Positions 2,679 through 19,440 of a stretch of DNA of 28,255 nucleotides are shown here, piece by piece; the first letter of the stretch is position 1, and each line of letters starts with the position of its first letter. A program made the translations under genes and the position numbers. Below the pieces are notes generated by a model. It was not told the origin of the DNA, ran no database searches, and was given only the letters and a program-made list of their open reading frames with translations. Location: the IMG/VR virus record IMGVR_UViG_3300043466_000983, positions 1 through 28,255 of that record; one strand, 5' to 3'. This stretch comes from a virus.

Positions 2679-2966
2679 ATGGCAAGGAAGCCACCACCAC
2701 GCCCACCATCAATTACAGACATGCTGCGCGATGTAGCGGACACTCTGCGCGACATGAACGCGCACGGACTCGCCGGGGATGTCGAGGCCGCTAGCGAATC
2801 GCTCCGCACCATGCTCGACCTGACCAAGTTTGGCGACTGCCTGTTCGGGGATGAGATACGCAACATCCTGAACATCCGGCACGCGCTCCGGCCACGGAGA
2901 GGCACGGCAATCGACCCGATGCACGGGCAGCGCAAAGATCGCCGCGCACGCCGTCCGATGCGTTAG
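2679..2966 (+). CDS. Small basic-ended hypothetical protein
   Basis: A 95-residue reading frame that starts 13 bases after the terminator T run, so it would need read-through or its own promoter. No ribosome site precedes the ATG at 2679. An upstream in-frame ATG at 2523 would run through the hairpin and overlap the previous gene in another frame. The product starts MARKPPPRPP, has a plausible amphipathic helix region (ITDMLRDVADTLRDMNAHGL) and ends in a very basic tail (QRKDRRARRPMR). Its stop overlaps the stop of the convergent late operon by three bases. It may be real because the protein looks well composed, but expression is uncertain. Confidence 0.45.
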   Translation: MARKPPPRPPSITDMLRDVADTLRDMNAHGLAGDVEAASESLRTMLDLTKFGDCLFGDEIRNILNIRHALRPRRGTAIDPMHGQRKDRRARRPMR

Positions 2967-4327
2967 ACGGTCACTAGCGTGTCGGCGAGCGTGTTGGTTC
3001 CGGTCAGCGGCAGGTAGATGCCTTGACGCTCTGCACCCACCCACCGTGCGAAGCCCTTCATAAACAAGCCCGTCGTGCTTGGATCGCTCACAGCCGCGAT
3101 GGTTCCCGAGTCGCCCGCCGCCCAATCGGTCGTGCCACAGGTGATGAGGACGGAAGGGCCAGCCGCATAGAGCCGGGTCATGGGGGCCAGCACTAGTTCA
3201 TCAATCATCAGCGTGCCGCTAGATGCGATGGCCGTGGTGCTGTAGATGTCGAGGTACAGCGTGGTCGGCAGCGCAGACTTGGCGATGCTGAAGGTGACGC
3301 TTTGCAGGGCGTAGGTCGTGGTCAGGCTAGCGAGGTTCAAGGTGATCGCAGTTCCGACCACCGTGCCCGACGCATCACGCAGCGCAACGCCGACCGTTCC
3401 GGTAGTCGATGCAGCCACGCGAGCGTAGAAGGTGAGCGCGTAATCAGTCTCGGCCTGCACGCTCGTAGGTGCGCCGGAGCCGGACGCAATCTGCTGCCGA
3501 ATGCGCGTGAGAGTCGAGCCGTTGCCGACGAACTGGAGCGCGTAGGTTCCACGGCATGGCGTGCTGCCCTGCGTCACCTGCGTACCAGCCGATCCCGTCA
3601 CAATCGTCCACGCACGCGGCGTGTTGCTGCTCCAACTCTCAAAGTCGCCGTTGGCAAGGATGCTCACGCCGGGTGCGCCGACGCTAGCCGTAATGCTCGC
3701 GCTCGTCGCCTGCACCGTGGTGTTCAGGCCCGAGCCACCCGGCCACGCGATGTTGTTCGCTGCGTAGGACGCAAATCCTGTGAAGGCAAAGGTGGCCTCG
3801 CCGAAGTTGCCGATGTCGCCGCCCACCGTGCAGTTCATGCGGATGGTTTCGTTGTACATCTCCTGCAAGTACAGGCTAGATGAGGCCGGACGGTAGGCGC
3901 GAACCAGAACCGTGCCCGTGCCTTGATTGCCGCTCGTCGCGGTGTAGGTAACGCTGCTCGTACCGACAGCCTCAAACTTGTAGGACTCCGAAATCATCTG
4001 GTCGCGCAACTTGCGGAGAGCCGTCGCTAGCGTGCCGTCGTATGCGCCATAGAGGTCGCGCATGTCGTTGATGATCGTGGCCGTGATGCTCTGTTGAATC
4101 GCCGCGTACACGGGCACGCCGAGCGTGGAAGAAAGGCCAGTCGAATAGTTTGTCAACGGCGCGAGGTTTGCCGTGTCCTGACGGAACTGCGTGCCTTCGT
4201 ACAACGACAAGACCGTATCAATGTTGTTTCCGATGTCCCACAGCGGCTGCGTGACGGTATAGACATTGTTCGCATATCCGAACAGCGATCCGAGGCGCGC
4301 ACCGAAGTCTGGAAGTTGGCTAGGCAT
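2963..4327 (-). CDS. Structural protein with CBM-like domain (paralogue of the gene at 11403-12683)
   Basis: A 454-residue protein at the end of the late operon. Residues 1-120 are mostly helical. Residues 125-210 are beta rich (VTYTATSGNQGTGTVLVRA, ETIRMNC, WPGGSG). Residues 223-383 look like a carbohydrate-binding, jelly-roll type domain of the CBM4/9 kind, opening with LANGDFESW and containing a Trp-rich entry (PRAWTIVTG) and a closing MIDELVL. The C-terminal 70 residues (CGTTDWAAGDSG, GIYLP) also match the paralogue. The shared order of ETIR[MI].C, WPGGSG, NG.F[ED]S, W.[AI]GD and the final G[IE].LP shows common descent. A virion surface or tail-tip protein that touches host glycans is likely. 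No ribosome site is evident before the ATG. Confidence 0.7.
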   Translation of the reverse strand: MPSQLPDFGARLGSLFGYANNVYTVTQPLWDIGNNIDTVLSLYEGTQFRQDTANLAPLTNYSTGLSSTLGVPVYAAIQQSITATIINDMRDLYGAYDGTLATALRKLRDQMISESYKFEAVGTSSVTYTATSGNQGTGTVLVRAYRPASSSLYLQEMYNETIRMNCTVGGDIGNFGEATFAFTGFASYAANNIAWPGGSGLNTTVQATSASITASVGAPGVSILANGDFESWSSNTPRAWTIVTGSAGTQVTQGSTPCRGTYALQFVGNGSTLTRIRQQIASGSGAPTSVQAETDYALTFYARVAASTTGTVGVALRDASGTVVGTAITLNLASLTTTYALQSVTFSIAKSALPTTLYLDIYSTTAIASSGTLMIDELVLAPMTRLYAAGPSVLITCGTTDWAAGDSGTIAAVSDPSTTGLFMKGFARWVGAERQGIYLPLTGTNTLADTLVTV

Positions 4328-8137: not shown

Positions 8138-9981
8138 GCAGTTGTTCCGCCTGATCCGCTGCTACCAGCATTCTTCTTCACGAAGTAGTCCATCACGCTT
8201 GCCGTGCCCGTGTAGTCAGACTGGGCATCGTAGGTGTTGCCGCTAGCGTACAGGCTGCGCGGCGAATTGACCGACGCTGGCGCAAACACCTTGCGCTGGT
8301 TGGGCCTGCCCGACCCGTCCGTGTCCACATAGCGGCGCGTGCTTGTGCTAGATGCCACATTCAATCGGATCTCGCGCACAGCCACGATTGCGAAGGTGGG
8401 TTTGCCGGAAGCATCGACAGTCGTATTCTTGATGCTGATCTGTTGCGTGATGACCACGCCCTCTTCCCTGATGTCTTCCCACGGGATCGGTGGGTTTCGT
8501 TCGGTAGACACCATCTTGATGGTCTGCTTCACGATGACCACGGGTAGGCGGGTCTGGAACGGGAACTGCACGATGCCGCCGCAAGTCTCAAGCATGTCTA
8601 GGCCGGAGTCTGCGTGGTTGTAGATCGTCTCCGTCTCCAGATGCTTGATGGCGTTGTTTGTGTTCTTGATCTTGCCATCTGTTACAACGGGCTTGGTGAC
8701 TGAAGATCCATCCGCCTTCTTCACTTCTGCGTCAGGCTGCTTCGTGGCAACAACAAGAGTCTTGGTGTCCTTGTCCTCTGCGTTCCCATACACGACTGTC
8801 TGAATGATGTCCGGCAGAATGCAAGGATCGAACACAAGGCCCGATGTGTCCGAAACGAATGTGCCGCCGTTGGGATACGCGGCAACATATTTGCTTGCTC
8901 CAGCCGTGTGCGGATCTGCAAAGGCTTGCTTGACGATGGAAGGATCTAGAGTCTCGGAGGACTGGCCTTGCGCCGTCACCTTGAGTTCGATCTTGTTGCG
9001 CGTGAAGATGTTCGGTTCCGTAATCGACATCGACTGCACAAGATCATTCTTGAAGTCGATGCGAGATGCGGCCGCTTCGATTGCGACCTTCAGCAGATCG
9101 CGCGGCTCCGTCTTGACATCGCCTTCAAAGGTGGCGGTGAAGTTCTTCGTGCCTAGCGGGCTGTCTAAACTGCGCTCGTAAGAGAACGAAGCATCGCCCA
9201 TCAGCACCGGGAACTTCAGTTCGCGGAACACAAGCCGATCTTCAATGCTGAATGTCAGCGTTCGCAAATCCGCAGACAGCGTGTAGTCCTGCCGCATTCG
9301 CCGGAAGCCATCGAATGGCTTGCCGGAGATGAGAGCGCGATACATGTCCGGCGAGTTGCCTGCATCGGGCGTTACTGCACCGTTGGTCGGCACGCTCGGA
9401 AGGACTTCCGGGTTGCTGTTCTTGTATGGCGCGGTGGTTCCGCTAGTGCTGGTTGGCTTGCGGTTCGATACCGTCAGCGTGCCGCTGCGCGTCATCGTGA
9501 TGAAGCCAGCCTCATCAATCGACTGCGACACGCTCATGTCGAACCGCTGAATGCGCGTGCCACCACAACCAAAGAATGAGTAGGTGAACGACACAAGCGA
9601 AACGGTCGCGCCAGAACCGCCGTGGATGTCTGTGATGTTCACAGATGGAATTGGGCCGTTTCGTGTGTCACCAACCGTGGTGTCATCCGATCCGTTTGCC
9701 AGCGTGTACCAAGTCCCGGTCGCGTCATCGAACTGGAACTCCAACTTGCCGCGCGGCGCGTTGAACTGGTTGCGGATGAGGTCAATCGCACCGCTGCCGC
9801 TTGAGAACGGGTTGCCTTCGATGTATCCGGTTCCCTCAATCGTCTGCTTGCGCCCGGTTCGATTGAATCCGTCGCCCTCGTAGAGATTTTCCACATTGAA
9901 CCGCGTCACCTTCACGCCAGTCAGCGTGTAAGCAGTCGCAGTACCGCCAGAAGCAGCCGGAGGGGTGTAGCGAAGTTTCAA
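8134..9981 (-). CDS. Large tail structural protein (hub or distal tail candidate)
   Basis: A 615-residue protein starting with TTG at 9981, which overlaps the stop of the tape-measure gene (TTGA), with AAGGAG nine bases upstream. The N-terminal part (KLRYTPPAASGGTATAYTLT) and much of the rest read as repeated beta hairpins rich in Thr, Ser and Asp. The C-terminus is a flexible Ser-Gly tail (KKNAGSSGSGGTTA). It has no transmembrane helix and no motif that I recognise. By position between the tape measure and the 814-residue protein it should belong to the tail tip, for instance the distal tail or hub component. Alternatives such as a receptor-binding protein cannot be excluded. Confidence 0.6.
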   Translation of the reverse strand: MKLRYTPPAASGGTATAYTLTGVKVTRFNVENLYEGDGFNRTGRKQTIEGTGYIEGNPFSSGSGAIDLIRNQFNAPRGKLEFQFDDATGTWYTLANGSDDTTVGDTRNGPIPSVNITDIHGGSGATVSLVSFTYSFFGCGGTRIQRFDMSVSQSIDEAGFITMTRSGTLTVSNRKPTSTSGTTAPYKNSNPEVLPSVPTNGAVTPDAGNSPDMYRALISGKPFDGFRRMRQDYTLSADLRTLTFSIEDRLVFRELKFPVLMGDASFSYERSLDSPLGTKNFTATFEGDVKTEPRDLLKVAIEAAASRIDFKNDLVQSMSITEPNIFTRNKIELKVTAQGQSSETLDPSIVKQAFADPHTAGASKYVAAYPNGGTFVSDTSGLVFDPCILPDIIQTVVYGNAEDKDTKTLVVATKQPDAEVKKADGSSVTKPVVTDGKIKNTNNAIKHLETETIYNHADSGLDMLETCGGIVQFPFQTRLPVVIVKQTIKMVSTERNPPIPWEDIREEGVVITQQISIKNTTVDASGKPTFAIVAVREIRLNVASSTSTRRYVDTDGSGRPNQRKVFAPASVNSPRSLYASGNTYDAQSDYTGTASVMDYFVKKNAGSSGSGGTTA

Positions 9982-10952
9982 GGTACGGCACTCCTTGTCC
10001 TGTATCCATGCGATGCGCTCGCACCGATACCAGCCGCAAGCGCATCAAGCGTGTCCGTCGCCCATGCGTTGACATTCTGCTTCTGCGTTGCCTGCTTGAC
10101 CATCTGCGAGATGTTGAGCAGCGTGCCGCCAACCTGTGAGACACCAGCACCAACAGACGAGAAGCCAGTACCGATAGCGTTCGCCATACCCGCGAGGATG
10201 CCGCCCGGATCCATCCATGACGGAATGTTGGTCGAAAGCGCGGACAGCATGGAGCCGAGCGTCTGGAGTCCCTGCCCAATCACGGACAGGATGCTGCCAA
10301 GGATTCCGGCAATCCATTGGATGACCGTGGCGATGATCGACACGCCTAGTTCAACCAGTTTGAGAATCGGAATGACGATAGCCATCAGAGCCGTCTTGAT
10401 GAACAGCATGATGGGCTGAACGCCGTTCATGATGCTGCGCCAGATGGTCGAAACGGTCGTGTACAGCGGGCCAAGAATCTTGGCCTCTTTCATGTCGCGC
10501 TGGAGTTCGCCCAACTTGTTCAGGGCATTCTCATTCGCCATCGCTGCATTGACTCGCGCGAGTTCGGAAACACGCGACAGGACATTGCTGACCAGAGAAC
10601 TGATGCCAGCCACAATCGCGGTCACGCCCGCCACAGCGATTCCGATTGCCGCGACACCGCCGACGAGCGCAGCCGTACCAACGCCACCCGCACCAGCCGC
10701 TCCGATGGCTTCGGCAGCACCGCCAGCCGCGCTCAATGTTCCGCGAATGCCGCCTCCCTGCGTGATGGAAGTGAACACATCCTTGAGCGTTCCAAACTTC
10801 TTGAAGGCTTCCTCAACGCCCTTCAACGGCTCAAGCGCAAATTTCTCCGCCTTCTTGATTGGAGACTCTGCGCCCGCACCGCCGCCTGCGCCGCCCGTGA
10901 TAGCGGACGAGATCACGCGAAGGTCAATGTGTCCAAGGGATTCGTCAGCCAT
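9978..10952 (-). CDS. Short tape measure-like protein
   Basis: A 324-residue protein with the usual features of a tape measure. It has a Gly/Ala-rich N-terminal region, a charged helix (EKFALEPLKGVEEAFKKFG) and two long hydrophobic stretches (about 90-125, AALVGGVAAIGIAVAGVTAI, and about 185-225, IVIPILKLVELGVSIIATVI). Between and after them are helices with regular Ser/Gly/Met content. It lies downstream of the tail tube and the frameshifted chaperone genes and upstream of two large tail-tip candidates, which is the standard place. The length is small: at about 1.5 angstrom per residue the tail would be near 50 nm. The start at 10952 has AGGA nine bases upstream and overlaps the preceding gene by eight bases. 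Confidence 0.65.
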   Translation of the reverse strand: MADESLGHIDLRVISSAITGGAGGGAGAESPIKKAEKFALEPLKGVEEAFKKFGTLKDVFTSITQGGGIRGTLSAAGGAAEAIGAAGAGGVGTAALVGGVAAIGIAVAGVTAIVAGISSLVSNVLSRVSELARVNAAMANENALNKLGELQRDMKEAKILGPLYTTVSTIWRSIMNGVQPIMLFIKTALMAIVIPILKLVELGVSIIATVIQWIAGILGSILSVIGQGLQTLGSMLSALSTNIPSWMDPGGILAGMANAIGTGFSSVGAGVSQVGGTLLNISQMVKQATQKQNVNAWATDTLDALAAGIGASASHGYRTRSAVP

Positions 10953-11406
10953 CGGCCATGATCCTCACAAATGAACGCATGGTCGCCGATGCACTCACCA
11001 TCCCGGTCGTGTCATCGTGCGTGCCTGCGTCGATCTTCATCCATACCTGACCGCTGCTACCCGTGTTCGGCACATAGCCGATCAAGGCTTCGGCAGCAGC
11101 GTTGGCGGTCAAGAACGCGCTCTTGTTGTCTACAAGGCTTTCGGTCATGCGCTTGGCGAAGTCGTACTCAACCTTCACCACGGCATGCACTCGGTAGTCG
11201 ATGAGCGACACATTCAAGCCCGACATGTCGCCAGCAGCCGACAGGCTGATGGGTTCGATCTGAATGTTCGGAACAGCCGAATCCTGCAATCGCAACTTGT
11301 CCACGACGAACACGCGATTGGATGCGTAGGAGAGTTGCGTTGCAATCCGTCCCGCGATGGCGGAGAAGAACGCACCGAGCGTCGTGCTGGTGGTAATGCT
11401 GCTCAC
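10945..11406 (-). CDS. Probable tail completion or minor tail protein
   Basis: A 153-residue protein starting with GTG inside the stop of the upstream gene (GTGA, 11403-11406). After a helix (LGAFFSAIAGRIATQLSYAS) come strands (RVFVVDKLRL, NIQIEPISLS), a long beta region (SLIDYRVHAVVKVEYDF), a helix (SAFLTANAAAEALIGY) and closing strands ending in MRSFVRIMADG. This alpha-beta layout and length resemble tail terminator/completion proteins, but I do not recognise an exact family. Its place next to the tape-measure candidate fits a tail role. Confidence 0.5.
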   Translation of the reverse strand: MSSITTSTTLGAFFSAIAGRIATQLSYASNRVFVVDKLRLQDSAVPNIQIEPISLSAAGDMSGLNVSLIDYRVHAVVKVEYDFAKRMTESLVDNKSAFLTANAAAEALIGYVPNTGSSGQVWMKIDAGTHDDTTGMVSASATMRSFVRIMADG

Positions 11407-12683
11407 GGGATGACGCTGTTTGTGATCGTGCCAGTCGAACCCGTTGGAAGTTCAATTCCGTTGGCAAACGGAGCGAAGAACCGCTCGGTGTAGGTCAGGA
11501 CATTCGACTGGTAGTTGTTGGAGATCGCCACCGTCGCGTAGTCGCCGATGCGCCAGTCAACATCTCCTCCGATGATCTGGATGAACTGGCCGTTCGTGCC
11601 AGCCTGCGGAGGCACAAACACGAACGCGCAGTCGATGGCCTTGACGCAGCCCACATCCTGATCAAAGCGGAACTCCATCGTGACTGTTGTTGCAGGTGCA
11701 TCGAATGGCATTTGATACGAGAACACATTCAATGCCCACGATGTTGTGAGCAACGCTGCATCTGACTCAACCAAATCTCCGTTGGGAGTTGTCAATGCCA
11801 TTGCCAAATCGCGAGTCTGCGTTCCGCTCACTTTCTTGGCCCAAAACCCATAGATAATTCTTTTTCCGGGGCCAAGCACAACTTGTGCGCTCGTCTGCGA
11901 GATTGTTCCAGTAACAGATCCGCTGTGCTGAAGCGCAGAACCGTTGCGGAATGTTCCTGTAGACAGTTGAGATAGAGATGCAGCACCAGTCACAACCGTC
12001 CAACTATCCGGCACGCCACCCGTGAAGGAATCAAAGCCGCCGTTGGTCAGCGTGTTCTGCGAATCGTTGTAGTCGCTGCTCGCAAGCGTCAGGGCTGCGC
12101 CACTACCACCCGGCCAGTCGTAGGAGGTCACATCCGTCACCCGCGTGCCGCCCGTGATCTGAAACACCTCGCGGCCCAGAGTTGCGCCCGTCGTGGTGTC
12201 GCTGACGCATTGAATCCGAATCGTCTCGGTTGGAGACATCTGCGACGGCGTGCCGTGGAGAATGATCTTGCCCGTGCCGACATTTGCAGCCGCATAGGAC
12301 ACGCTGCCCTGCGTGATGACATTCTGATAGATGGTCTGACTAGCCGCTCGCATCTGGCGATTCAGTTCCACCATCGAAGGCGTGACCGCCTTGTAGATGT
12401 TGGCATTGTCCGCGTAGATCATTTCGATCAGCGTCTTTGCTCCCGAGTCGATGACGCGCTGCACGGAAGAATCTGTGGTCGCGGTCAGGTTCAGGAAGTA
12501 GTCAAGAACCTGCGAGATCATGTAGCGCGTCGATGCGTCGTACTGCGCGTCAAGACCGGAGGAGGTGAAGGAGCCTGTACCCTTCACCCGGTCGAGGAGC
12601 GTATTGCGCGCGTCAATCTGCGCCTTCGCCATCCCCATCAGTTTGCCAATTCGGTTGTAGAGCGTGGTCAGCGAGATTGCCAT
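11403..12683 (-). CDS. Structural protein with CBM-like domain (paralogue of the gene at 2963-4327)
   Basis: A 426-residue protein with GAGGA upstream of the ATG at 12683. The N-terminal 120 residues are helical (LTTLYNRIGKLMGMAKAQ). Residues 125-205 are beta rich with ETIRIQC and WPGGSG. Residues 210-358 look like a CBM4/9-type jelly roll starting with LTNGGFDSF and PDSWTVVTG. The C-terminal part (GDVDWRIGDY, GIELP) matches the last gene of the operon. The jelly-roll part has markedly lower GC (87 of 180 bases at 11701-11880) than the part encoding the preceding region (39 of 60 at 12121-12180), as if the domain was acquired separately. A virion protein exposed to host glycans is likely. Its position between the tail chaperones and the tape measure is unusual. 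Confidence 0.7.
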   Translation of the reverse strand: MAISLTTLYNRIGKLMGMAKAQIDARNTLLDRVKGTGSFTSSGLDAQYDASTRYMISQVLDYFLNLTATTDSSVQRVIDSGAKTLIEMIYADNANIYKAVTPSMVELNRQMRAASQTIYQNVITQGSVSYAAANVGTGKIILHGTPSQMSPTETIRIQCVSDTTTGATLGREVFQITGGTRVTDVTSYDWPGGSGAALTLASSDYNDSQNTLTNGGFDSFTGGVPDSWTVVTGAASLSQLSTGTFRNGSALQHSGSVTGTISQTSAQVVLGPGKRIIYGFWAKKVSGTQTRDLAMALTTPNGDLVESDAALLTTSWALNVFSYQMPFDAPATTVTMEFRFDQDVGCVKAIDCAFVFVPPQAGTNGQFIQIIGGDVDWRIGDYATVAISNNYQSNVLTYTERFFAPFANGIELPTGSTGTITNSVIP

Positions 12684-12937
12684 TGGTTAGTCCTCAATGC
12701 GTCCAATGATGCCGCAATCTGCGCCTTGACGCTAGGTTTCTTGCCCACCAGCGACGGCGCAAAGTTCGTGAGCGCATCCTTGCCGCTCATCACGATTCCA
12801 ACGCCCTGCATGATTGGCACAGCCTTCCATGCGTTTGCAACTCCAAGGTTCGCCATCATTCCCAAGGCAACATCGGCAGGCAGTTGCCAAGGAGTAACAC
12901 CGTAGACAGCGGCGAATATCGCTACGGTGCGCCAGCG
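12668..12937 (-). CDS. Tail assembly chaperone, -1 frame extension (gpGT-like)
   Basis: This 89-residue extension is read after a -1 ribosomal frameshift at the GGGAAAC heptamer (12937-12943). It joins residue 80 of the upstream frame to RWRTVAIFAAVYGVTPWQLP and continues through LGMMANLGVANAWKAVP to the stop at 12668, for a fused product of 169 residues. By analogy with lambda G and GT, the fused form would hold the tape measure while the short form coats it. A start in this frame exists (TTG at 12865, ATG at 12859), but it would omit the well-composed segment just after the shift. The open frame runs straight into the slippery site with no stop, which supports fusion. Confidence 0.8.
   Translation of the reverse strand, partial: RWRTVAIFAAVYGVTPWQLPADVALGMMANLGVANAWKAVPIMQGVGIVMSGKDALTNFAPSLVGKKPSVKAQIAASLDALRTNQWQSR
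12898..12929 (-). promoter_or_regulatory. Stimulatory stem-loop for -1 frameshifting
   Basis: Reading the - strand, CACCGTAG (12929-12922) pairs perfectly with CTACGGTG (12905-12898), an 8-bp stem enclosing 16 bases that can form a small inner GCGA/TCGC hairpin. It begins seven bases after the slippery heptamer, within the usual 5-9 base range, so a stalled ribosome would have its decoding site on the heptamer. The stop codon of the short form lies inside the stem. Confidence 0.75.
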
Positions 12938-13176
12938 TTTCCCAAGGACTTGAGGCTCATCGTCACGCGAAGCGCAAGAGCAAGCGTTTCGGTGGGAGTC
13001 AAAGCCTCGGCCTCGGACTGCGGACGAATGGCGTTGCGCGTGGCTTGAATCAAGTTCTCGCGCGTCGGATTCTCCTCGGCTCCCATCATGGTGAGTTCAG
13101 AGAGAACCAATAGCGCGTCGATCTTCACCACCTTGTCGCCGACGGGGTATTCCTGAATGAACTGGTTTTCGGTCAT
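12922..13176 (-). CDS. Tail assembly chaperone, short form (gpG-like)
   Basis: An 84-residue protein (MTENQFIQEYPVGDKVVKID...) encoded directly after the tail-tube candidate, whose stop overlaps its start as TGATG. It is acidic and helical (DALLVLSELTMMGAEE, ENLIQATRNAI, TETLALALRVTMSL), as expected for the short tail chaperone. In siphoviruses and Mu-like phages this gene sits between tail tube and tape measure and is extended by a ribosomal frameshift. The slippery site lies at the end of the reading frame. No exact family is recognised, but position, size and frameshift signal agree. Confidence 0.8.
   Translation of the reverse strand: MTENQFIQEYPVGDKVVKIDALLVLSELTMMGAEENPTRENLIQATRNAIRPQSEAEALTPTETLALALRVTMSLKSLGNAGAP
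12937..12943 (-). other. Slippery heptamer for programmed -1 frameshift
   Basis: On the - strand the zero frame reads TTG GGA AAC, that is G GGA AAC, the X XXY YYZ pattern needed for simultaneous tRNA slippage. Lambda uses the closely related GGGAAAG between G and T. It lies four codons plus a stop from the end of the short chaperone frame. Confidence 0.85.
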
Positions 13177-13694
13177 CAGGTGATTGTATACACCGTGCTG
13201 TCAGCCGCGTCTGCGTCCGGCAGGGCTTCTGCACGAACCACGATCCGGTTGGCCTTGTTGCCGAAGTCGGTATGGTTGAGAGCCAGCAGGCGGCAACGGA
13301 ACACCTCCACGGTCTTCTGTCCCGCCGCCGTGCTGTCTGGCAGCAGTTTGACGCTGAAGGTAGTGTCGCCCGTGATACCGGGCTTCAGAACCGAACCAAC
13401 CTTGGGGTATGCGTAGGTTCCGCTGGTCTGTCCGCCGTCGATGGCAGCAATCACAGTCTCAAAGTTGGTGCGATCAATCAGCACCAGCGAGAACGAAACG
13501 GTCGCCTTTGCGCCCGTGCGGATGACTTCCGCTGGCATCGTGCCAAACTCATTCGTGAAGATGTCCACATACTGATATTCGCTCTCAATACGGAACAGGT
13601 CGTCGTTATCGCCGCGACCGACCGTGGCGTATGAGCCGCCTGCGGCCTTCATCTGGATGGTGTGCGGGCCTGTGACTTCGAATGCTGTTGCCAT
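13176..13694 (-). CDS. Probable major tail tube protein
   Basis: A 172-residue protein with a strong ribosome site (AGGAGG, seven bases before the ATG). It is almost all beta (HTIQMKAAGG, YQYVDIFTNEFG, KATVSFSLVLIDRTNFETVI, TFSVKLLP, VEVFRCRLLALNHTDFG, NRIVVRAEALPD), the fold expected for a tail-tube subunit. Its place right before the frameshifted chaperones is the canonical position. The strong ribosome site fits a protein needed in many copies. I cannot name a specific family from sequence alone. A tail terminator or other beta-barrel virion protein is the main alternative. Confidence 0.65.
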   Translation of the reverse strand: MATAFEVTGPHTIQMKAAGGSYATVGRGDNDDLFRIESEYQYVDIFTNEFGTMPAEVIRTGAKATVSFSLVLIDRTNFETVIAAIDGGQTSGTYAYPKVGSVLKPGITGDTTFSVKLLPDSTAAGQKTVEVFRCRLLALNHTDFGNKANRIVVRAEALPDADAADSTVYTIT

Positions 13695-17618: not shown

Positions 17619-18503
17619 TTATGCCCAAGTGAGACTCCAAAGGCAAACGCTTCCGGCTGGCGAGCGAGTCAACTTGAACACATCCGAGAAGTCGCTATCA
17701 AACTTACCACCCTTTTCTATCGCCTTTGCAATTGCCGAGTGATATCCGCTGACATCGGTTCCGGTGTTGTTTGCATAGAGACACGATCCGGGCTGTCGCG
17801 TGATCGCAAACCGCTCCTTGCGGCCCTTGCCGAAGTAGAAGCGATCCTCGACCTTGAAGGTCGCCTTCGCGCCGGGGCGGGAGAAGCGACCATACTTCTT
17901 CACAAGTTTTGGCATCTCCACCTTCAAGTCCGCTCCGCTTGCAAGAATGGCGTTGATGTCGTTCTTGATTTTTCCCGAATCCATGATGCTCACGGGTACA
18001 CCGTGGAAATACTCATAGAACACGGTTTCCCACTTCTCGCGCACCTTTGGCTTTCGCGTAGCCATCATGTCCTTCTCGCCGGGGCGGCAGGCAATCAAGC
18101 CCTTGCCACGCAGGCGATCACGAATCACGGAGATGTTCTGATGCGCCGCAATCTCGGGCATTTCTGGAATGCTCCACATGCCGCCCGTCGGCGTTTCGGT
18201 GCGGACGATCTTGATTGAGCGACCGCCCTTGAGTTGCAGACGCACTTCGTTCTCACTTGCCATCATGTCCTTCTTGCCGGGGCGGGAGGCAAGCGTCTTG
18301 ATCTTCGGGCCGGGAGCATGCTTCACGGTTGAATCAATGTCCACGGCAATCTTCTTTGCCTTTGGATACTGGCTCTTCATGTGATCCAACATTCGCTTGC
18401 CGTAGAACTCGGCCTCCTGCTGCGTATCAAACGAACGCTCGCCCATGATCATTCCGTCCATGTAGCCACGGATGACGAAGTAGTTCCCGTCAGACCTTGC
18501 CAT
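17619..18503 (-). CDS. Modular head-region protein with RPG-type linkers (second of two)
   Basis: A 294-residue protein of no recognised family. It reads as four small modules joined by short linkers. Module 1 (about 5-70) has YFVIRGYMDG and a helix. It ends in SRPGKKDMM (73-81). Module 2 (about 84-137, EVRLQLKGGRSIKIVR) ends in CRPGEKDMM (139-147). Module 3 (about 150-205, EKWETVFYEYFHGVPVSIMD) ends in FSRPGAKATF (207-216). A linker VEDRFYFGKGRKERF (218-232) then leads to module 4, which has GYHSAIAKAIEKGG. The gene overlaps its neighbour by 14 bases. It lies between the MuF-like and protease genes, where phages often encode proteins packaged with or injected alongside DNA. This could be such a multi-domain cargo protein, which is inference. 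Confidence 0.65.
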   Translation of the reverse strand: MARSDGNYFVIRGYMDGMIMGERSFDTQQEAEFYGKRMLDHMKSQYPKAKKIAVDIDSTVKHAPGPKIKTLASRPGKKDMMASENEVRLQLKGGRSIKIVRTETPTGGMWSIPEMPEIAAHQNISVIRDRLRGKGLIACRPGEKDMMATRKPKVREKWETVFYEYFHGVPVSIMDSGKIKNDINAILASGADLKVEMPKLVKKYGRFSRPGAKATFKVEDRFYFGKGRKERFAITRQPGSCLYANNTGTDVSGYHSAIAKAIEKGGKFDSDFSDVFKLTRSPAGSVCLWSLTWA

Positions 18504-19440
18504 TCTTCACCTCCACATTCCAGTAGCGTCCGATGGACTGCACCGGAGCCGTCGCGCTGTAGCCGTTGCTCGCCACGCGGCGAGCGAAGTTCCCAGCCAC
18601 ATCGCCGTCCTCAAACGAAATGACCAACGCACCGCCGCCAGTCTCTACGGCACGCCATCCGCCCTCGGGCATCTGCTTCTCGGAGAGCAACTTGCCAAGC
18701 ATGGGCGATGACGAAGCCGCCGCAAACCCCTTGCGGTCAAGGCTCGACGCATCGAACCGCTCGGGCTGGCCGGGGCGGGAATATGCAACCGCCGAGGTTC
18801 CCGTGAATCCCGAAAACGATTGCGGAGTAGTGCTTATGCCCCAGTTCTTCAGGTATGCAACAGCATCGGGCGGCATATTTGTTACGGTGTAAACCGTAGT
18901 GGTGATTCCCCTTTTCGGATCGTCTTTTCGATCTTCGCTACTTCCACTAACGGCATATCCCGCCATCTTGGCCGCTTCCCTCAATCGCAAAACAAGTCGG
19001 CCCGCAATCGCAGCACCCTTGCCCGATTTCCAAACCTGTTGCCACGCTCCTGAAACATTTACGGTGTCACGACCACTAATCCAAACTCGCACCTTCTGCC
19101 TTTGAGAAGTCATATCCGCCAAAAACGCACGAATACTTGGCATCCACGCTGCGGCCTCGAACCGCTCGGGCTGGCCGGGGCGAGAGAAATCCATGCCCTT
19201 CACAGCCACCTTGGCGCGAACACCTTTTCCGTTCTGCTTCGCCCACGCATTGACTTTTTCAATCATGGTTTCCAGAAAGTCGGATCGGCTCACGCCGGGG
19301 ATATTGGCGATTGCGTATCGCTTGAACTCGTCAGTAGACACCATTGAAGATCGGCCCGCGTCTAAAAGTTCAACTCGCATGAGGCCAAACCGCTCGGGCT
19401 GGCCGTGCTTGCCGAAGTAAAACTTGTCTTCTGTGTTCAT
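18490..19440 (-). CDS. Modular head-region protein with PERF linkers (first of two)
   Basis: A 316-residue protein that I do not recognise. It begins directly with a linker (FYFGKHGQPERF, residues 7-18). Module A (19-84) follows, with MRVELLDAGRS and a helix IEKVNAWAKQNGKG. Then come linker FSRPGQPERF (85-94), module B (95-219, with IAGRLVLRLREAAKMAGYAV), linker YSRPGQPERF (220-229) and module C (230-316, with GGGALVISFEDGDVAGNFAR). The two SRPGQPERF copies are almost identical also in DNA. Module B has lower GC (58 of 120 bases at 18841-18960) than the linker region (43 of 60 at 18721-18780). The start overlaps the MuF-like stop as ATGA. It might be a polyprotein cut by the prohead protease, or a set of swappable effector domains. 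Confidence 0.65.
   Translation of the reverse strand: MNTEDKFYFGKHGQPERFGLMRVELLDAGRSSMVSTDEFKRYAIANIPGVSRSDFLETMIEKVNAWAKQNGKGVRAKVAVKGMDFSRPGQPERFEAAAWMPSIRAFLADMTSQRQKVRVWISGRDTVNVSGAWQQVWKSGKGAAIAGRLVLRLREAAKMAGYAVSGSSEDRKDDPKRGITTTVYTVTNMPPDAVAYLKNWGISTTPQSFSGFTGTSAVAYSRPGQPERFDASSLDRKGFAAASSSPMLGKLLSEKQMPEGGWRAVETGGGALVISFEDGDVAGNFARRVASNGYSATAPVQSIGRYWNVEVKNGKV
18754..18783 (-). repeat. Linker repeat (YSRPGQPERF) in modular protein 1
   Basis: Encodes residues 220-229. The core is identical over about 26 bases to the copy at 19159-19188, and both bound modules of different base composition. Confidence 0.8.
19159..19188 (-). repeat. Linker repeat (FSRPGQPERF) in modular protein 1
   Basis: Encodes residues 85-94. 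A near-identical DNA copy lies at 18754-18783. A partial copy (encoding GKHGQPERF) is at 19387-19422, and weaker relatives lie in the next gene at 18258-18290, 18060-18092 and 17808-17885. Confidence 0.8.

Follow-up and report, generated by a model that had tools for sequence, protein, structure and literature searches.

In the stretch of DNA of an uncultivated phage analyzed here (the window: all 28,255 nucleotides (nt) of IMG/VR record IMGVR_UViG_3300043466_000983, positions 1 to 28,255), two overlapping reading frames, G and T, lie among the tail genes on the minus strand, a strand left unstated in the original prediction made from the sequence. Almost certainly, a programmed -1 ribosomal frameshift at this site makes two predicted tail-assembly chaperones, the short G and the longer GT. 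G ends in TMSLKSLGNAGAP before its TAG stop and carries, shortly upstream of it, a slippery heptamer GGGAAAC, followed after a short spacer by a hairpin with a perfect stem of 8 base pairs (bp) and a 16-nt loop; the last G of the spacer is able to add a ninth pair (G.U or G-C). The fused GT product is predicted at 169 amino acids (aa), of which 89 residues, starting RWRTVAIFAAVYGVTPW, come from the -1 frame. The heptamer in X_XXY_YYZ phase, the 7-base gap and the perfect stem were indeed found exactly where the original prediction had placed them, and its figures of 89 open codons in the -1 frame and of products of 84 and 169 residues were correct. With trypsin, the junction peptide of GT would be SLGNR, too short to use, and with Lys-C it would be SLGNRWRTVAIFAAVYGVTPWQLPADVALGMMANLGVANAWK.

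Taken alone, the window offers suggestive evidence from heptamer and stem, which is not decisive. In-frame X_XXY_YYZ heptamers (Y being A or T, Z not G) occur only twice in the 7,869 codons of its 24 called genes, the G site included, so that the presence of one inside the 57 codons where both the zero and the -1 frame are open is an event of about 1%. When synonymous codons were resampled with the -1 protein held fixed, 3% of the trials had an 8-bp Watson-Crick stem that began 4-10 nt downstream. The other in-frame heptamer, GGGAAAA, lies at 17970-17976 on the minus strand, in the gene at 17619-18503, where the -1 frame stays open for 88 codons.

What decides the matter is how the site is conserved and covaries among relatives. 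Close relatives were first found by protein and pattern scans of IMG/VR; since selecting sequences by the signal itself was to be avoided, a heptamer-blind scan was then anchored on an alignment of the major capsid protein, with separate G and T profiles applied at each locus. The comparison of both frames in related phages, proposed in the original prediction, came out in its favor: in 28 of the 29 contigs reaching the site (earlier loci included), both genes are intact and T lies in the -1 frame relative to G. At loci L052, L053, L057, L066, L068, L074, L075 and L079-L085 the sequence runs out ahead of the site, as it does within G at L072, so that none of these counts as evidence of absence. 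A second scan of viral contigs with a GT profile gave no further relatives, and no relative was found in GTDB genome contigs. The resulting set comprised 26 distinct GT coding sequences from many metagenomes.

The heptamer was GGGAAAC in 17 of these sequences and GGGAAAA in the other 9; this exchange swaps Asn for Lys in G, and both forms are slippery. An alignment of 22 distinct 79-nt site sequences showed a distance from heptamer to stem of exactly 7 nt in all 22, with varying spacer letters. The stem, counted as nine pairs with the outer G.U or G-C, was paired in 197 of 198 cells (99.5%), including 19 compensatory cells, and three of its pairs were altered on both sides. None of 500 shuffles reached the paired fraction, the number of compensatory cells or the covariation score, a test which is inflated by the kinship of the sequences; sliding the partner by 1-3 columns lowered pairing to 25-51%. 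Mapped on the GT tree, the co-varying pairs show 2-3 changes each, amounting to roughly five independent double changes. The G stop itself takes part: of the 8 site sequences with TAA in place of TAG, 7 also have T in place of C in the 3' arm, the lone uncompensated TAA stem being that of L049. This locus thus shows a hairpin kept by compensatory change, and its distance of 7 nt from the heptamer falls within the range of about 5-9 nt looked for in stem-stimulated -1 frameshifting. Extra inner pairs and a helix containing the heptamer, which appeared in a smaller alignment, vanished on the larger one, and no pseudoknot is claimed. An Rfam search gave no match.

Such conservation could also be read otherwise, the hairpin being kept for translational control of the downstream gene or for mRNA processing, and slippage being hairpin-independent as in phage lambda. 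The heptamer by itself could give a low level of shifting, and certain tailed-phage shifts are reported to proceed seemingly without stimulatory signals (PMC5009743). The exact 7-nt gap just reported, however, argues against another role, as do the position of the zero-frame stop within the stem and a distance of more than 200 nt to the next start, and we consider this explanation improbable.

Both frames are under coding constraint. Synonymous differences, as a share of same-residue pairs, amounted to 47% in G and 51% in T beyond the stem, against 2% where the two overlap as coding sequence. G and T each varied most at the third codon position as read in their own frame, which for T is the pattern of a real protein. 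L041 has a -1 frame which becomes open just 2 codons ahead of the heptamer, and the shift must therefore fall between there and the stop. These data also bear on whether T could be a separate gene with its own start, through internal initiation or stop-start coupling at the G stop. T is indeed a long frame overlapping G, and many relatives have an ATG, GTG or TTG 8-26 codons into it. However, L059, L064, L076 and L077 have no such codon in T down to about 26 codons past the heptamer, and the first -1 start in the window is a TTG at that same distance of 26 codons, whose use would delete the most conserved part of T. Because of these four start-less relatives and of this late TTG, separate initiation is unable to make full T. 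It would also leave the conserved heptamer, the fixed spacer and the covarying stem unexplained. An independent start is thus strongly disfavored, and we regard it as very improbable.

Two further explanations have a negligible probability. Open frames are cheap in GC-rich sequence, the +1 frame being likewise open for about 68 codons in GC-rich members, and the -1 frame and heptamer might be due to chance or to a frame break caused by sequencing error; but the +1 candidate was rejected, as it closes within about 21 codons in L037 and L041, while T is kept as a protein with codon-position-3 bias in the 26 distinct sequences, which refutes a chance frame, and an error would not turn up again in 28 contigs, each with its slippery site intact. 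Transcriptional slippage requires long A or T runs. Such polymerase slippage, or a +2/-4 shift, would lead into the frame of T just as a -1 ribosomal shift does; here, however, the runs are GGG followed by AAA or AAAA, and the ribosomal model fits the phase of the heptamer as well as the spacer and the hairpin, leaving this last proposal with next to no likelihood.

From a mechanistic point of view, a programmed -1 ribosomal frameshift would operate as follows. Most ribosomes would read G to the TAG inside the stem and release the 84-aa chaperone. A smaller share would be held up by the hairpin 7 nt past the heptamer and would move back by one base, tRNA-Gly and tRNA-Asn pairing anew with GGG AAA; these ribosomes would then bypass the TAG in the -1 frame and yield the 169-aa GT. 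If lambda is a guide, G would coat the tape measure, and the scarcer GT would also recruit tail-tube subunits through T.

The genomic context is in line with such roles. G and T lie directly after the gene of the tail tube protein, and two genes separate them from the tape measure gene (Table 1), an order, namely tube, G, T, a gene of about 426 aa, a gene of about 153 aa and tape measure, which was the same in the window and in the five relatives compared. The AlphaFold2 model of the tail tube protein (mean predicted local confidence, pLDDT, of 71) had 13 matches in the PDB at E<=1e-3, nearly all of them tail-tube, neck or Hcp-type proteins, and matched the lambda tail tube 8k36 with an E value of 1e-3; in PHROGs, this protein had no match. 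Portal, terminase and connector genes were recognisable in the window as well. In all of the genomes so compared the tape measure protein is short, its length being 310-381 aa in relatives.

Table 1. Elements of the predicted frameshift signal and neighboring tail genes in the window.
Feature	Position	Strand	Remarks
G, zero-frame tail-assembly chaperone (predicted)	12922..13176	-	84 aa; C-terminal end LGNAGAP-TAG
Slippery heptamer G_GGA_AAC	12937..12943	-	zero frame TTG GGA AAC; X_XXY_YYZ phase
Spacer GCTGGCG	12930..12936	-	7 nt; length invariant among relatives
Hairpin 5' arm CACCGTAG	12922..12929	-	contains the zero-frame stop TAG (12924-12922)
Hairpin 3' arm CTACGGTG	12898..12905	-	within V-Y-G codons of the -1 frame
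T, -1-frame extension	12668..12937	-	89 aa and TGA stop; overlaps the ATG (12683) of the next gene
Tail tube (major tail) protein	13176..13694	-	172 aa; stop overlaps the G start (TGATG)
First gene after T	11403..12683	-	426 aa; weak carbohydrate-binding-like domain; precedes the tape measure
Second intervening gene	10945..11406	-	153 aa; between T and the tape measure
Tape measure protein	9978..10952	-	324 aa; PHROG 58 'tail length tape measure protein', E 2e-10

Several results nevertheless weigh against a chaperone frameshift at this locus. Regarding protein identity, no match was obtained when G, GT and T were searched in PHROGs and Pfam, and a fold search of the PDB with the AlphaFold2 model of G (pLDDT 83) gave no significant match, which is why no solved chaperone structure is claimed for G. 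In BFVD, the best match of this model was an unnamed 89-aa viral protein (A0A516L3X5; template modelling score, TM, of 0.77; E 6e-4), the best named one being a 'Tail assembly chaperone', A0A6J5S1I4, with a probability of 0.92 and a TM of 0.46. Regarding the signal, the folding energy of the window's hairpin was within the shuffle range (z = -1.1), and, to judge from A_AAA_AAC and A_AAA_AAG in Escherichia coli (PMC5009743), bacterial ribosomes may slip less readily on GGGAAAC than on GGGAAAG. Finally, in the only contig of the 29 without intact frames, IMGVR_UViG_3300045125_000087 (L025/L042/L078), both open reading frames (ORFs) are broken by single-base indels, which are probably assembly or read errors, and GGGAAAC is kept. 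Further BFVD chaperones matched the G model at weak scores, and its nearness to models of phage tail chaperones speaks to some degree for a role of the lambda G/GT type; the G sequence profile had no meaningful match among PDB chains, and GT had none among INPHARED phages. The chaperone role proposed for G and GT follows mainly from position, architecture and frameshift logic.

The lambda heptamer is GGGAAAG, whereas here it ends in C or A, with a T of 89 aa. Likenesses to lambda include the GGGAAA slippery core, a short G and a longer GT, and a tape measure gene downstream. Three traits of lambda-type shifts, namely overlapping conserved G and T frames in -1 relation, an in-frame slippery site and a location between the tube and tape measure genes, were found here. 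By contrast, two genes part T from the 324-aa tape measure, the usual order being G, T and tape measure, and no sequence homology to lambda was detected. In lambda, gpG and gpGT (Levin, 1993; Xu, Hendrix and Duda, 2004, 2013, 2014; in the summary given in PMC5009743) are present at about 30:1, G binding the tape measure and T recruiting the tail tube. That summary describes lambda-type G-T shifts as low-level and seemingly without stimulatory signals; here, a hairpin is kept by compensatory change. The original prediction had called the frameshift a textbook one that fits the lambda G/GT logic: the programmed -1 shift in a tail chaperone is supported, while the conserved hairpin departs from the lambda model. 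According to the same source, the g-t frameshift site of the haloarchaeal siphovirus HCTV-1 is also G_GGA_AAC and holds the counterpart place in the tail genes; it differs by its archaeal-virus setting, and no hairpin is mentioned where that source describes it. With respect to the last codon, the account of Escherichia coli in PMC5009743 is that A_AAA_AAG shifts far more than A_AAA_AAC, G_GGA_AAG being highly shift-prone. The hairpin may offset a weaker last codon of the heptamer here.

The dnaX gene of E. coli, a cellular gene unlike G and T, combines an A_AAA_AAG site with an upstream Shine-Dalgarno-like stimulator, and its shifted product is the shorter one. It shares with the present site a bacterial slippery heptamer followed by a stimulatory hairpin (PMC3711429). 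In an HK97-related cluster, tail-assembly-chaperone fusions are likewise made by frameshifting, two of which were measured at 6-7% (PMC3711429); G and T, however, differ from any known chaperone in lacking a PHROG match, and GT in lacking an INPHARED one.

This phage group is thus an unannotated and previously undescribed case of a well-known frameshift device, with evolutionary support of unusual strength. It stands out by a covarying hairpin which holds the stop codon, by the two genes preceding a short tape measure, and by having no annotated sequence relatives. As a standard ORF listing would show the 84-aa G alone, T being start-less, the 169-aa product would be missed across the group. 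The set of sequences lends itself well to comparative study, as a tail-chaperone frameshift whose hairpin has covariation behind it and encloses the stop codon of the short product. A tentative proposal, which we consider rather unlikely, is that the unusually short tape measure of this group (310-381 aa) calls for fewer copies of G per GT, and that the hairpin for this reason raises the shift rate beyond the low one of lambda. If so, an RNA element would help to set the stoichiometry of tail building. Whether the G:GT ratio tracks tape-measure length has become a testable question.

Two minor observations concern other genes of the window, all on the minus strand. The 426-aa gene (11403-12683) and a 454-aa gene near the other end of the tail module (2963-4327) are full-length paralogues, which align over 451 positions with 24% identity (E 1e-15). 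Two adjacent genes (17619-19440) contain repeated short motifs of the type (S)RPGQPERF, RPGKKDMM and FYFGK, which suggests repeated domains in a head-region protein.
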